Positions 3,501 through 53,735 of a stretch of 64,000 nucleotides of DNA are shown piece by piece (position 1 is the first letter of the stretch; every line of letters begins with the position of its first letter). The position numbers and the translations under genes were made by a program. The notes beneath the pieces were generated by a model. The model worked only from the letters and a program-made list of their open reading frames with translations. It had not been told where the DNA came from and did no database searches. The DNA is from Xanthostigma xanthostigma (taxonomy: Eukaryota; Arthropoda; Insecta; Raphidioptera; Raphidiidae): assembly GCA_963575645.1 (NCBI GenBank), contig OY754468.1, positions 48,557,665 to 48,621,664 of the forward strand, read 5' to 3'.

Positions 3501-6500
3501 CGCGCCGGATTGTATTGTGCGGCCATCGTCCTGGGGGAGTATTGTCGGGCGAAGATAGTAAAGATCGAAGACGACGATACAGTCAGGGTGTTTTGTATTG
3601 ACTTCGGGACGGTGGAGATGGCCGACAGGAAGAGTCTTTGCTTCTTACATCGCAATTATGAGGACATTCCTGCACAGGCCATCAGGGCGAGGCTCGCTGG
3701 CATCAGGCCACACAGGCCGAAGGTTATGTGGCCTACGACTGCGACCCAAAGACTGCTTAGCCTGGTCAAAGAAAAGGTTTTGATATGCTGTGTTCAGGTT
3801 ACTGATACTCTGGTAATTACAAAATATTTTTTATTATCTTCATATGTTCACTATAGGCGGACATTTTTTATTTTAATAATGATTTCGTGTAAAAACACGA
3901 TATTATTGAATTTTGTGACATTTGCGCTAACTTATAGCTCGTTAACTTTTCGAAGACAACTGGAACATTTTTAAATTAACGTAAATTACATATATAAATA
4001 TATTATCAAATGGACCATATACAGCGTTGCCAGTTTTTTTTGCCAAGTCGGGATTTTGGAACTCTTTGAGTGAAAACAGCGGGATTCTTTCGTCGAAAGC
4101 AGGACATAGTAAAAAAACGTATATAATCAGAAGTTTTCAAATACCTATTTATTTTTTATTTGAATTAAAATTACGTTTACGTGACAATAGATAGCAAAAA
4201 TAGCCATAGAAAATGTATTTTAATAAAAATATAATATTTTAAATCAGATTTACCCTATCGTTTAGTTGAGTCTTACTCGTCTTCAGAAGAAAAAAAACAG
4301 AAATCAAAATCAAAAAAGTTTTTCTCATTATAAAAATATGGCGTTTCAAACAATAGTCTGTGGAATGAGTGTTACAAATTGCAACTTACAATAAGAGAAT
4401 AATTATTTATAATAATTACTTATTCATGATATTTCTGTGAAGATTTAACTTCTTTTAAAGTTATCCCCGAGTTATCCCCGAAAAGCGGGACTGAGCCTGT
4501 CCCGCGCGGGACATTTAATTTTGATTTAAAAATCGGGACGTCTGGCAACGCTGACCATATACCTACACTAAGAGTCTGTTACCACTCTTAGTTCATTATT
4601 AAAGACATATTCTGGTTAATGTACAAAAAAAAAAACTATGATTTTTTTGGGTCAATATTCATGAGTGGTCAGGTGACAAAAATTCAGGTGGCCAATTTGA
4701 TAGGATTTACTGTATTAACTGTCATTGTTTATTTACAGAATCATATTGTCGACATCGATATTTACGACACCAACGGCCCCAAAGATCTCAACATCGGCAA
4801 TCTTCTTGTTGCCAGCCATTTGGCAGAGCATTCTTCGACCAAGGTAAATAAAATGGCCAAACATCTTCCCGTTTTACGCAGTGTTTTATTTATAATACAA
4901 AAAAAAAGTGTTTTCTATTCAGAACTTTATAGATCTTTCTTGCTCAAAGAGATAATATTCCGGAAATGTGTACATTTTAGTTTTTACCTAAAAATGTACC
5001 CTCGTTTCAACCCCTTAATCATCAAATATCAATGTAAAACTTGATTGTTTAGAAGGACATACTTTATTCACTTTAAAATTATTAATATTTGAAACATTTT
5101 TGTTTCCGTAATCAATAATCAGTGACAACATTTTTATTTTCCTTTCCAAATATCTAATGCAAAAAATCCCCTTCAGGGTTTAGAATTTCATTGAACTTTT
5201 TTGAATTTATATTAAATGGTAATTGCTTATCATTTCATAATTAATGACTCTATTAAACTAAGAAATTGATTTTACAGCTATCACGGTGGATCAATCCTCG
5301 CCTGGCCCAGGTGTACCTATGTCCAAGTTTCGAAGATGTCGAAACAGGCGTGGCGATGACGTTCAGGCAACTGAACTCATTGTCGATATATGAAACGGAC
5401 ATAATGAAATCCGCCTTTGCCGAGTGGATAAAGGAGGCCAAAGCGAATCGGAAATTCAATGCGATAACATTTTCTAAAAAGATTGGACAAGGTAAGATTC
5501 CAACGATTTTTTTATAATTCATTTCACCAATCATTAATATACGATATTTTTAACAGACTTAAAAAAAAGGAGGTTTTACAATTCGATGTTTTTTACACGC
5601 TTTATATTAACTTCACTTGTAAGTTTGTATGTATGTATGTTTGTAACCTTCGTTTGGACTACAGCAAGTGGTTTATTACTGTAGTATAATATGCCAGCAC
5701 TGTAACTACAGTGTTTAGCCAATAAATTTTTGACAATAAATCGAACTAAAAAGTGGAAAATAAATATAGTTTATGTTATGAACAAAATAGCGTCCAATTA
5801 TTTTTAAATCGGTTTAACACTGGCGGAGCTATCGCGGAGCAAACAAAAAAAATATAGTTTAAAAAAAACTAAAAAACACGTTTTATGTCGAACTAAAAAG
5901 TAAAAAATATTTTTTTTAAAATAATCTTAAAACAATAATGAATAAAAAATATTAGTACTATTTATTCATTATTGTTTTAAGCTTATTTTTAAAAAATATT
6001 TTTTACTTTTTAGTTCGATATAAAGTGTGTTTTTTAGTTTTTTTTAAACTATATTTCTTTTGTATGTTCCGCGATAGGATCCGCCAGTGTTAAACCGATT
6101 TAAAAATAATTGAACGCTATTTTGTTCATAGCGATATAGGATTGGTCCTATATAGCTTTCCTTAAAATCGGTTCAGTTGTTTTTAATTGATGTAGAAAAA
6201 AAAAGCAAAAAATATAATACCTCTTACAAAAATCACTAAATAATGAAAATTTGAGGTCCGTGCCTATAGTTACGAAAACATATTTAGGTTTATTAAATTG
6301 GCGCCAACTTCAAAATTTCATTATTTTCCTCCGATTATTGGCTTCTTTTGAAAGATGTAAATTAAAAAGAAAATATTTATTTCAATAAAATGATTATTTA
6401 TATATTTTATATTTTATTTTCAGGACTGGCACACGGAATTTGGACGAGGGAAACATTTCCAGCTTTGAGGCAACCGAGGAAATTTCTGGGCAGAAAAAAA

Positions 6501-49524: not shown

Positions 49525-50354
49525 TTTCCGTTATCCAGTAGTGTAACCAAGGAGATAGTAAGGTGTTTAACGGAAGACTTGACTATGTTCGTAAACTGGG
49601 TTTGTGACATTAACAGTTGTTCTGGAATGTTCCGGCTTCCTGGAGAACTGCATGGTCGCATAACGTTCTGCAAATGATTCTGCAAACACAATACAGGGAC
49701 AACATCTGTGTACACAAGGTATAAAATTACTTATGTTGCATTTTCGCTTTCTAATATTCCTGTGAGTTTAATCAGTATATAAACGCGTTTTTGAAAATAA
49801 TTCTGCATTGAAAAGCATGATGACACTATAAAAGAATCAAAGAATTAAATGGTTTTAGAAAAAAATATATGTTCAAAAAATTCAAAAAATCATTGAGATT
49901 AAAAAATAAAAGTATAAAACACTGCAATCAGCCATGTTGACTAAAGCACCGAATGACGTCACGCCTATGTAAATCAAAGAGAGTACAAACACTTGAAGTA
50001 AATAATCATCATGTCTCTTGATTTTTTGTTGCGATCATTCACTTCTGCATCATTTAATTAGTTGATTTGTTGTTTTTTATAACCCTTATGTCATAGGTTA
50101 TTTTTGAGGTTAGTTACAAACTCGTTAACATATATTCCGTCAACTATAACAAAATACAAGCGGTCGATTATAGGTCACCTTACCCTATAGTGCCGTAACT
50201 ACCTATTTGTACGCACGACTGTTTAATAACAGATTGTTTAATAACCTTATATATAACCGAAACAAAATATATTATAACCACGTGACTACAGCGTACTTAA
50301 CGAAGTAGTAAATAACGTAGCATGTGTGTACCGCTCTCCCGTCTCTTGCAAATT
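49525..50354. other. no gene recognised
   Basis: Nothing recognisable. Confidence 0.4.
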
Positions 50355-50621
50355 AGGCCACTCAAAGAAGCAAAAATAGGGGAAATAATTCGTGTAAAAG
50401 CGATTTTTGGCATAGTTGTAGGGGATGGTGTCTGAAGCAACATACTCAAAGTACTGATGGATGGGGGTGGAGCTAAGGGGTAGGGGGTGGCGTTAAGGTC
50501 CCCTTTTAAAGTTTTTCTTATATATCTCGTAAACGGTGGCTCATAACAAAAAAATTTTTTTACTCAAGCAATCTACATAAAATTCTCTACAAAAAAGGTC
50601 CTGTACACTTTTTCGGTGGGA

Positions 50622-51957
50622 TCAATATTGAATGACCCGTGAAGGAAAGAAGATGGTCAATAATAAAATAAAGATACAGTTCTTTGAGTAGGTATGGCAT
50701 GTATTAAAAAAATTCCAATTATCTTCTAAATCTAACATAATATCATCATCAACATCATCGACGACGGTGTTTTCGATTGGGGCTCCGTTAGTGCATGAGC
50801 TGGAGCATACCCCGCAAACACTGGAGCGGGCAATTCCTGCTTTCCGGCAGCCGCATCGCACCCCACACCCAGTTCTACATCGGCAAAATATGCTGTTGAG
50901 TATGGAGTCAGGTGCCACAGGATCGTTTGTTGTCACCGACTTTAATGCCATCGTCTCTTCTGGCCCAGCCCCATTGAGTAGGTGGTAGGGGCTTGCTGAG
51001 CCATTGTTGTATCTGTAAAAGATGATATAAGATCAACGTAAGTATTTAGCTCAAATATATATTTAATATATATTTGACAACTTCTGTGGTTAATGATACC
51101 TGTAGGTACACTCTCAACGAGTACTGCTTCGAAGCTTCTCTGGTAGGACGAAGAGTGGCCTGATCTGATTTCGGATTCATTGATGCTCTCAAAAAAGCTG
51201 AGTATCGTAATTTATTTAGATTTTGTTCCTGGTTAGACGCTTTGTAAATGGCCAGAAACAGTTTCTCGCCGGCCTGTTCAATACTCTCAGGTGATGTTGA
51301 AGGCTCATTAAAAATGTCTGAGATTTTTTGGGTCAGGTCTGGTTTATCCGTGAACATCTTAGCAATTCCCACTTTGCTCTTTCCATGGATTGCAGTGGTG
51401 GTGTCGCATCCGGAGAAGCTGTGGAGAAGGAGAATTGTCTTGGCAAGTGGAAACTGTTGAAGTTGTCGCACTGAAAACAATTTGGTTTCCACCTTTCCAC
51501 GCCCTGGTTTCATAAAGAACACGTTAATATTTGGTGGAGCCAATCCCATGAGGAGGACTATCAAGTCGACATTTTCCCCAACTATTACAACAGTTGGATG
51601 GATGGCAGCCTTATCCAACCCGCATCTGACAATAGTACCATCAGCATCTCCTGTTGCAACAGTTGTTTCAATCCCTGCTGCTGTCATTTTCTCGGTGAGG
51701 AACTGAATCAGCCTCGTTTTATTTTTTTCGTTGTCGAGGAAATGCTCCTGTTTAACAGTGATGATCGTATTTTCGTTACAGTTAATATCAACCGACGTTT
51801 TAGTCAGACCTCGTCGTTTCTGCTCTGCTCGTTTAGTGCTGTTGACATCACTGTAACCATCAAAAACCACCATACAGTTTGGACCGTAATGTTTCTGGAC
51901 GTAGGTAATGTTTTGATGGCAAATCGTAAAAACGTTGGAGGACGGGTTCCATTTCAT
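50622..51957 (-). pseudogene. FEN1/XPG-like nuclease with C-terminal CXC domain (damaged)
   Basis: Exon 51957-51100 encodes 286 residues: YVQKHYGPNCMVVFDGYSD, TVKQEHFLDNEKNK, ATGDADGTIVRC, VVIVGENVDLIVLLM, FSGCDTTTAIHGKSKVGIAK and PTREASKQYSLRVYLQ. An 87-bp intron (51099-51013, GT-AG) leads to QQWLSKPLPPTQWGWARRDD. A +1 frame change near 50951 then gives ALKSVTTNDPVAPDSILNS and a Cys-rich CRCRTGCGVRCGCRKAG ... CGVC. The acidic clusters line up with FEN1/XPG active sites. The same order occurs in an uncharacterised invertebrate protein family I recall. Against function: the frameshift, the missing N-terminus, a lost Cys in the CXC unit and Asp-to-Asn in GENVD (family GDDTD). Confidence 0.72.
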
Positions 51958-52000
51958 ACTCCACGTGTGCGTCGTGATTGGTTGGCGGTGACCTTGCCGC

Positions 52001-52688
52001 CAGTGAGAGATGATACAAAATACTAGGAACAGTTATTTTGGAACGGTTTCGAACGAGGAACAGATTGGAACAGTTGTCAGTATAATAAAATACCTGTTCC
52101 GGGCTGTTCCAATGCTTCGACTGTTCCGAATAACATAATGGGCGTTCTTCTGCATAAAATAAACATTCTCCGTTCCCGTTGTCAATTATTATTGTACCTA
52201 CTTTGCAAACTGCAACAGTTATGCTCTTCACCTACGCCTAGCGTACATTGTACGTAAAGTCGATTTTAGTATCACACCATCACATTAACATGCGTCGCAA
52301 AGTTTCAGACAAAACTGGACGGCTTATTAATTTGATATTACATACGCGAATAATATTGAACTGTGGTGAAATAATATTATTTGATTTTGTGATAGTATAA
52401 GCATTCTGCAGAACAACTGTTACTTACATTCTGTAAAAGTATATTTTTAATAATTAGGTACCTTAAATTATTAAACTTGAATAATAGAATTAATTCACGA
52501 AAAAATACAAATCATACACATTTCATAATTTGAAATTTTTATAAGTTGCATGTTACTAGCTATTCCGAGAATGTCAAGGTTCCAACGTTGGAACTGTTAA
52601 AAAGTAACAGGTTTTTGGAACTGTTCCGTAAGCGGAACAGGAACGGAACGGAACTGTTATTAAAAAATAACAGTTTGTACCACCTCTG
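52001..52688. mobile_element. MITE nested in the nuclease element
   Basis: CAGTGAGAGATGATACAAAA at the left and (inverted) CAGAGGTGGTACAAACTG at the right. Both are followed by GTTATTTT and GGAAC-rich repeats. It sits just upstream of the nuclease frame and probably removed its 5' part. There is no clear target duplication. Confidence 0.55.
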
Positions 52689-53145
52689 GCGCCAGTCCCT
52701 TGCACCCGACGACGCTACAGAAACGTGCCGTGTGCGCCAGCAGTTTGAACCAATACGTAAAAACACGAGAATTGAGCATAATTAACTTTTCTTCTTTGAT
52801 ATCTCGTTAAATATTAATCCCAGCGAAAAAGTGTACAGGACCTTTTTTGTAGAGAATTTTATGTAGATTGCTTGAGTAAAATTTTTTGTTTTGAGCCACC
52901 GTTTACGAGATAAATAAGAAAAACTTTAAAAGGGGACCTTAACGCCACCCCCCACCCCTTAGCTCCACCCCCATCCATCAGTACTTTGAGTATGTTGCTT
53001 CAGACACCCTCCCCTACAACTATGCCAAAAATCGCTTTTACACGAATTATTTCCCCTATTTGGCAGTTTTTGGTCTTCGTTGATTGAACTAAATGGCCTG
53101 TTTTGATTCTTAATAATCTTGGTCTTTAATAGAAGTTCGTAAGTT

Positions 53146-53272
53146 ATTATTAATAAGAATCGCAGGATTGTGGACAATTAATTGTACTTGAAAAAGTCTA
53201 AATTTATAGACGAAACGTCGTACACTGAATAAAGAACTTTTTGTCCACAATCCTGCGATTCTTATTAATAAT
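53146..53272 (+). mobile_element. retrozyme-like inverted repeat with hammerhead-like core
   Basis: The 32-bp arms 53146-53177 and 53241-53272 (AATAAGAATCGCAGGATTGT) enclose TGTAC, TTGAAAA, A, stem GTCT/AGAC, GAAACGTC, GTACA. Stem I (TGTAC/GTACA) and stem II are perfect, but the core is TTGAAAA instead of CTGANGA. Confidence 0.65.
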
Positions 53273-53635
53273 TGTCGCGATGGACACGATTTCTAATATA
53301 TATTCGTTAGTTATGATTAACCACGGGATAAATTTGATTATTTTGGTATGTTTTTTACCTTGTTAACAAACAATTGAATACTTTCATAAGTTAATAAAAT
53401 AAATTAATTAATTAAAACAACGGTTTTATTTTGCTCCTAATAGAAGAAAATAATTTTGGTGAGATTGTCAACATTTCTAAAAAGAAAATCTAGGCACTCA
53501 TAAAATATTACTGTTCCTGATTTTTTTGAGCGCCCAATGATTTTCTTTTTACAAATGTTGAAAATTATTTTGACCAAAATTATTATCTACTTTTTAAAAC
53601 AAAAAAAAAACATTGTTTAAAAACAAATGTTTAAT
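53273..53635. other. no gene recognised
   Basis: TGGACACGATTTCTAATATA (53281) recurs (TGGACACGATATCTAATATA) at 60181, as flank of the same family. Confidence 0.45.
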
Positions 53636-53735
53636 AAATAAAATTATCGACCAATTTTTCAGACAAAATTGGTCGATAATTTTATTTATTGAAGAGTTCT
53701 AATCAGACGTTAATCAAAGATTTAAAAACAAATGT
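53636..53735. repeat. collapsed inverted ends of the Penelope-like element, copy C
   Basis: AATTATCGACCAATTTTTCA is followed almost at once by AAATTGGTCGATAATTTTAT, so the two inverted ends meet with a TCAGAC junction and no body. GAAGAGTTCTAATCAGACGT follows. Confidence 0.85.

Follow-up and report, generated by a model that had tools for sequence, protein, structure and literature searches.

A probable AcademX-type deletion derivative with a FEN1/XPG-like nuclease remnant in Xanthostigma xanthostigma

The window element and its copies in the genome

The window analysed here is a stretch of 64,000 nucleotides from the genome of Xanthostigma xanthostigma. It contains an element of 2,738 bp (50354-53091), delimited by its termini and target duplication, with 5'-TAG termini and the trinucleotide AAT on both sides. 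A preliminary description based on the window alone had placed the limits at 50355-53098, which is close, although the termini and the AAT duplication now give slightly different positions. The features of the element are as follows; L039 is a full-length relative elsewhere in the genome.

50351..50353, no strand: target site duplication AAT, left (comparison of ends and target duplications)
50354..50640, plus strand: terminal inverted repeat on the side of the gene's 3' end, starting 5'-TAGGCCACTC (inverted-repeat alignment)
50787..50885, minus strand: CXC-like Cys cluster, one Cys changed to Arg (CGC; TGC in L039) (frames and comparison with L039)
50944..50945, minus strand: point at which two nucleotides present in L039 are missing, so that nuclease and Cys cluster are out of frame with each other
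51013..51099, minus strand: 87-nt GT..AG intron-like stretch, without counterpart in L039
51097..51957, minus strand: remnant of a FEN1/XPG-like nuclease (287 codons counted from Met) that has lost the strand with the first catalytic Asp
51571..51573, minus strand: AAT (Asn) codon at the equivalent of FEN1 D179; GAT (Asp) in L039
51960..52709, no strand: filler of about 750 bp, unrelated to L039 and common to the derivative copies, replacing L039 1478-5208
52710..53091, minus strand: 5' end of the element and second inverted repeat, starting 5'-TAGTTCAATC
53092..53094, no strand: target site duplication AAT, right (comparison of ends and target duplications)

Read inward, the ends of the element begin 5'-TAGGCCACTC and 5'-TAGTTCAATC. 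They align as one gapped pair of 256 columns at 96.1% identity, in agreement with the inverted ends of about 255 bp seen earlier, and include the arm pairs 50374-50557/52878-53061 (184 nt, 97%) and 50548-50635/52804-52891 (88 nt, 91%). Between them, a minus-strand frame of 328 codons (51046-52032, stop to stop) has the motifs GDADG, GENVD and GCDTTTAIHGKSK; the three motifs are thus present as first quoted (GDADG, ENVD and GCDTTTAIHGKSK), and the gene lies inside the terminal inverted repeats (TIRs) both here and in the full-length relatives. The Cys cluster was originally assigned to the same gene as the nuclease. In the window copy it occupies a separate frame (50622-51032), and the two domains do not form one open frame because the 87-nt GT..AG stretch and the 2-nt deletion intervene. 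Two short repeats lie to the right of the element. One, immediately adjacent (53146-53272), has 32-nt perfect inverted arms, and locus L015 is inserted in a relative of this repeat; the other (53625-53698) is an inverted repeat of 34 nt at 91% with a 6-nt loop. The pattern (TTAGG)6 was also sought and gave no match.

Copies were sought in the whole genome (623 Mb, 28 contigs). Longer copies (L039, L040 and L063) are present, and a nuclease match lay within 3 kb of the inverted end in all 40 scored copies from 135 candidate end matches. Matches to the nuclease with an identity of 86% or higher mark 66 distinct places in the genome, L039 among them, with more distant families besides; this count derives from 70 nuclease matches entered, with a few fragments adjoining listed places and those below 86% omitted. 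Ends were checked at 31 loci (L009-L039), and 28 were counted after exclusion of L011, L014 and L038, where one end only was present. An exact 3-bp target site duplication (TSD) flanks 24 of these 28 loci, whereas shuffled pairings of the ends yield 2.85 on average; L015 has a 4-bp TSD (TATA), and none was found at L010, L018 and L039. When the element and one TATA are removed from L015, the sequence aligns unbroken across the joint to the window repeat 53185-53273 (76 of 90 positions), so that an empty site is seen independently. The units have transposed with target duplications of 3 bp and, once, 4 bp.

Full-length relatives, nuclease domain and classification

Locus L039 contains a 1,449-codon frame between 275-nt arms at 98% identity, in an element of about 5.6 kb whose nuclease is 93% identical to that of the window in the genome search. 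It is imperfect, with a 3' terminus of CGG instead of TAG and no TSD. By eye, about 50 bp are directly repeated in its two flanks (about 1040-1090 and after 6722) in place of a 3-bp duplication. Locus L040 (about 7.1 kb, TSD GAG, 5'-TAG termini) has a 1,463-codon frame, arms of 446 columns at 96.6% and, in another frame of 131 codons, what is likely an additional 5' exon. Similarly, L063 (about 6.8 kb, TSD CAT, 5'-TAG termini) has a 1,521-codon frame and arms of 1,054 columns at 98.4%. The inverted repeat of L063 (5538-5822 versus 567-851) enters the 3' end of its frame, which ends at 5621, so that the coding end is doubled, inverted, at the 5' side. In L041, two frames of 911 and 538 codons lie between long inverted repeats. 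In all four elements, the large frame has the nuclease and Cys cluster at its C-terminal end. The encoded proteins share a layout of N-terminal C..C motifs, a middle part, the nuclease and then a Cys-rich, CXC-like tail. The window frame, first read as a gene, is not an intact one but the tail of a frame of about 1,450 codons in a deletion derivative.

The middle part of L063 (residues 542-788) weakly matches Pfam DUF6589 (PF20231) at 24.6 bits against a cut-off of 27 in the protein scan; in the genome search DUF6589 was above cut-off at L063, with neighbours at 28. The Pfam protein scan gave no DUF6589 match in L039, L040 or L041 at E values up to 1, and a literature search found no paper on DUF6589. 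The family protein alignment contains conserved D, D and E candidates of the transposase, and we infer that the middle part with the weak DUF6589 match is a DDE-type catalytic core.

The family nuclease is, at the level of sequence profiles, related to the FEN1-family nucleases. A comparison of ten element sequences, cut back to the domain, with eight FEN1-family sequences (FEN1/EXO1/GEN1/XPG) gave a probability of 83.7%, an E value of 8e-6 and a score of 46.2 over 217 columns, in support of the FEN1/XPG-like domain proposed at the outset. Sixty column shuffles scored at most 21.8 and the transposase middle, as a negative control, 18.1; when single element sequences were dropped, the probability was still 78-84%. 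It was 8.6% with FEN1 alone, without EXO1, GEN1 and XPG, and 84.1% with EXO1, GEN1, XPG and human FEN1. A first comparison with fewer sequences had given a probability of 4.3% and a score of 28.0, against a maximum of 19.7 in 10 shuffles and 19.3 on reversal. The D of VIDGG, the D of VVFDGY, both D of DAD, both D of EDVD and the D of GCD align to the catalytic acids of FEN1 (D34, D86, E158, E160, D179, D181 and D233 in FEN1 numbering). Six of these positions are acidic in 10/10 sequences and the D179-equivalent in 9/10 (Asn in L047).

Other searches were negative within their scope. Pfam protein scans found no XPG, CXC or transposase model over cut-off in the family, and single-sequence searches with the window frame (Pfam, PDB, phage records) returned nothing relevant. 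An hmmsearch of PDB sequences with the ten-sequence profile did not recover FEN1. No relative was found in virus and prokaryote contigs; human FEN1 was likewise unmatched there, so the reach of the contig scan is limited. AlphaFold, run on the window fragment alone and with no alignment, gave a mean pLDDT of 35.

In L039, the tail has nine Cys in the arrangement C-x-C-x3-C-x3-C-x-C-x6-C-x3-C-x2-C-x(3,4)-C, as read from the alignment, a spacing slightly unlike that of the Tesmin consensus. The Tesmin/TSO1 label given to the window's Cys motif fits in its Cys spacing only; the Pfam CXC model matched none of the element proteins, with E values up to 10 covered for the window frame and L063, and thus the cluster is named CXC-like only.

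The window element (50354-53091) is best read as a DNA transposon copy that has lost internal sequence and autonomy, most likely belongs to the AcademX lineage (Academ superfamily) and was mobilised in trans; we give this reading a probability of about 0.8. The elements are probably AcademX members, placed by TSD, TIRs and nuclease, that is, by described features of the group and not by transposase sequence. The nuclease of AcademX is of the XPG type. A literature search for Academ together with XPG found no paper. Academ is listed as a superfamily in several reports (PMC9587614, PMC9783078, PMC5753468, PMC9143410, PMC9004415), and a further one gives TSDs of 3 or 4 bp for AcademX and 9 or 10 bp for AcademH and links this to nuclease and helicase (PMC10045372). 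It is rather unlikely that elements of the same anatomy constitute a superfamily separate from Academ, with an independently carried FEN1-like nuclease. Such a reading would accommodate the sub-threshold DUF6589 match and the lack of any Pfam transposase match. However, AcademX is described as pairing an encoded nuclease with a TSD of 3 or 4 bp (PMC10045372), and the length of L039 is near the 5,565 bp that curated bivalve Academ elements average (PMC10294476).

Losses and decay in the derivative lineage

Compared with L039, the window copy has kept 392 columns at the 5' side, followed by the filler, the nuclease part, the 87-nt GT..AG stretch and the 3' end. About 3.7 kb has been lost, comprising roughly the first 1,060 codons and including the strand with the first catalytic Asp. 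At the D179-equivalent, 33/33 distinct derivative copies have Asn and L039 has GAT, which makes ENVD a changed EDVD. The motif had been listed among the acidic signature motifs of flap nucleases; it is the D-to-N form, in a domain from which the first catalytic Asp is deleted as well. The window copy keeps five of the seven catalytic acids. Further, one CXC Cys (TGC in L039) is Arg (CGC) in the compared derivative copies covering that site, and the 2-nt deletion before the Cys cluster is present in 15 of the 30 loci L009-L038 (the window included) and absent in 14, with L026 uncovered.

The 87-nt GT..AG stretch occurs in 38/38 derivative locus records (33 distinct places). It is missing from L039 (96% identical at the DNA level), L040, L041 and L063, and the frame of the distant L043 breaks, by eye, at the same codon. 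This distribution suggests precise intron loss or recurrent gain inside one transposon family.

Among the 33 derivative copies, the ratio of nonsynonymous to synonymous variants is 43:15 for singletons, 23:8 for variants in two to four copies and 5:3 for those in at least five, with a neutral expectation of 2.68. The corresponding dN/dS values are about 1.07, 1.07 and 0.62, the last based on eight variants. The majority state of the derivative differs from L039 by 14 nonsynonymous and 11 synonymous changes (dN/dS 0.47, both branches together). Thus, the nuclease of the window lineage is without two of its seven catalytic acids, and its evolution is neutral. Between distant families the nuclease is under constraint: L041 and L063 give a dN/dS of 0.25, and in the other six of seven distant pairs dS is saturated, with pN of 0.26-0.45. 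Near copies within a family are, by contrast, almost neutral, with dN/dS of 0.84-0.85, and L044 and L045 differ by two nonsynonymous and no synonymous changes. Stops at the same codon are common to L018/L019/L025, to L020/L024 and to L021/L030; broken copies have thus multiplied, which argues for movement in trans.

These data also bear on the proposal that the nuclease-Cys fragment of the derivative works, for example as a dominant-negative repressor of the full-length element, for which the KP type of P-element repressors is a parallel. The 14 loci without the 2-nt deletion, whose exon 2, where readable, is open through the Cys cluster except in L035, speak for such a role, as does an in-frame Met ahead of the fragment. 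The copies vary neutrally, however, at a dN/dS that would still be compatible with a brief repressor role, and both the shared stops and the Arg at one CXC Cys count against function, which makes a working fragment improbable. The notion that a host FEN1-like gene was captured as cargo between the inverted ends can practically be set aside, for although the window by itself has a nuclease-like frame enclosed by TIRs, L039, L040 and L063 have the domain as an uninterrupted part of the large frame, which refutes capture, and the seven genome stretches matched by Pfam XPG_I coincide with no listed element copy. Thus, where the domain was at first offered as either transposition machinery or cargo, the former stands, as the C-terminal part of a single large protein.

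The filler was found with derivative copies in all 40 scored matches (153 candidates), by eye against the copy list; a dispersed repeat was considered and rejected on this account. Part of it (52003-52690) has, by eye, hAT-like ends (CAGTG.../...CTCTG). A hAT reading of these ends is unsupported, as no matching 8-bp duplication was seen by eye. The filler may be a nested element carried by the derivative.

A possible mechanism and comparison with known systems

On the reading of the window element as an AcademX-type derivative mobilised in trans, full-length elements would make one protein of about 1,450-1,520 residues, in which a FEN1-like domain accompanies a probable DDE-type core. The 3' ends would be cut by the core and joined by it to the target DNA with a stagger of 3 bp, and the flap nuclease might act at the joints, where it would cut or trim the 5' strand that is not transferred. 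A similar role is assumed for host FEN1 after retroviral integration. The derivative would have contributed the ends only, as the cis part, its copies being mobilised by the proteins of full-length elements. On a bolder and rather unlikely reading, the elements carry a transposase-fused flap endonuclease because their 5' strands stay attached at strand transfer, and the domain removes the resulting 5' flaps or makes the second-strand cut. If this is true, the dead-nuclease derivative would show that flap activity acts in trans, on every copy that has the ends.

The element is ordinary as such; the fusion of transposase and flap nuclease is its moderately interesting aspect. One genome holds a transposase-FEN1-like fusion with catalytic residues complete in most lineages beside a multiplying derivative with a dead nuclease. 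The role of a flap nuclease for a DDE-type transposon, and whether it is a cis requirement, thereby become testable. A caution also follows: a nuclease-like frame enclosed by TIRs can be what is left of a larger one.

In comparison with AcademX, as described in the reports cited above, the elements have in common the TIRs, the TSD of 3 or 4 bp, the encoded nuclease and, for L039, a length near 5.6 kb. A further likeness is that no Pfam helicase model was matched in L039, L040, L041 or L063. They differ in that L040 and L063 are longer, that the TIRs of L063 reach about 1 kb and that the window copy is a deletion derivative only. The tail of L039 shares its nine-Cys arrangement with Tesmin/TSO1-like CXC domains, whereas the window copy has eight Cys, one position being Arg. 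Relative to the Rad2 nucleases (FEN1/EXO1/GEN1/XPG), the element has DAD for E-x-E and GCDTT for G[ST]DY, and its nuclease is fused behind a large transposase and lies beyond a Pfam XPG_I or PDB sequence search. With these nucleases it nevertheless shares the seven acidic positions, in order and register, and the segment after GCD aligns to the GIG helix-hairpin of FEN1.
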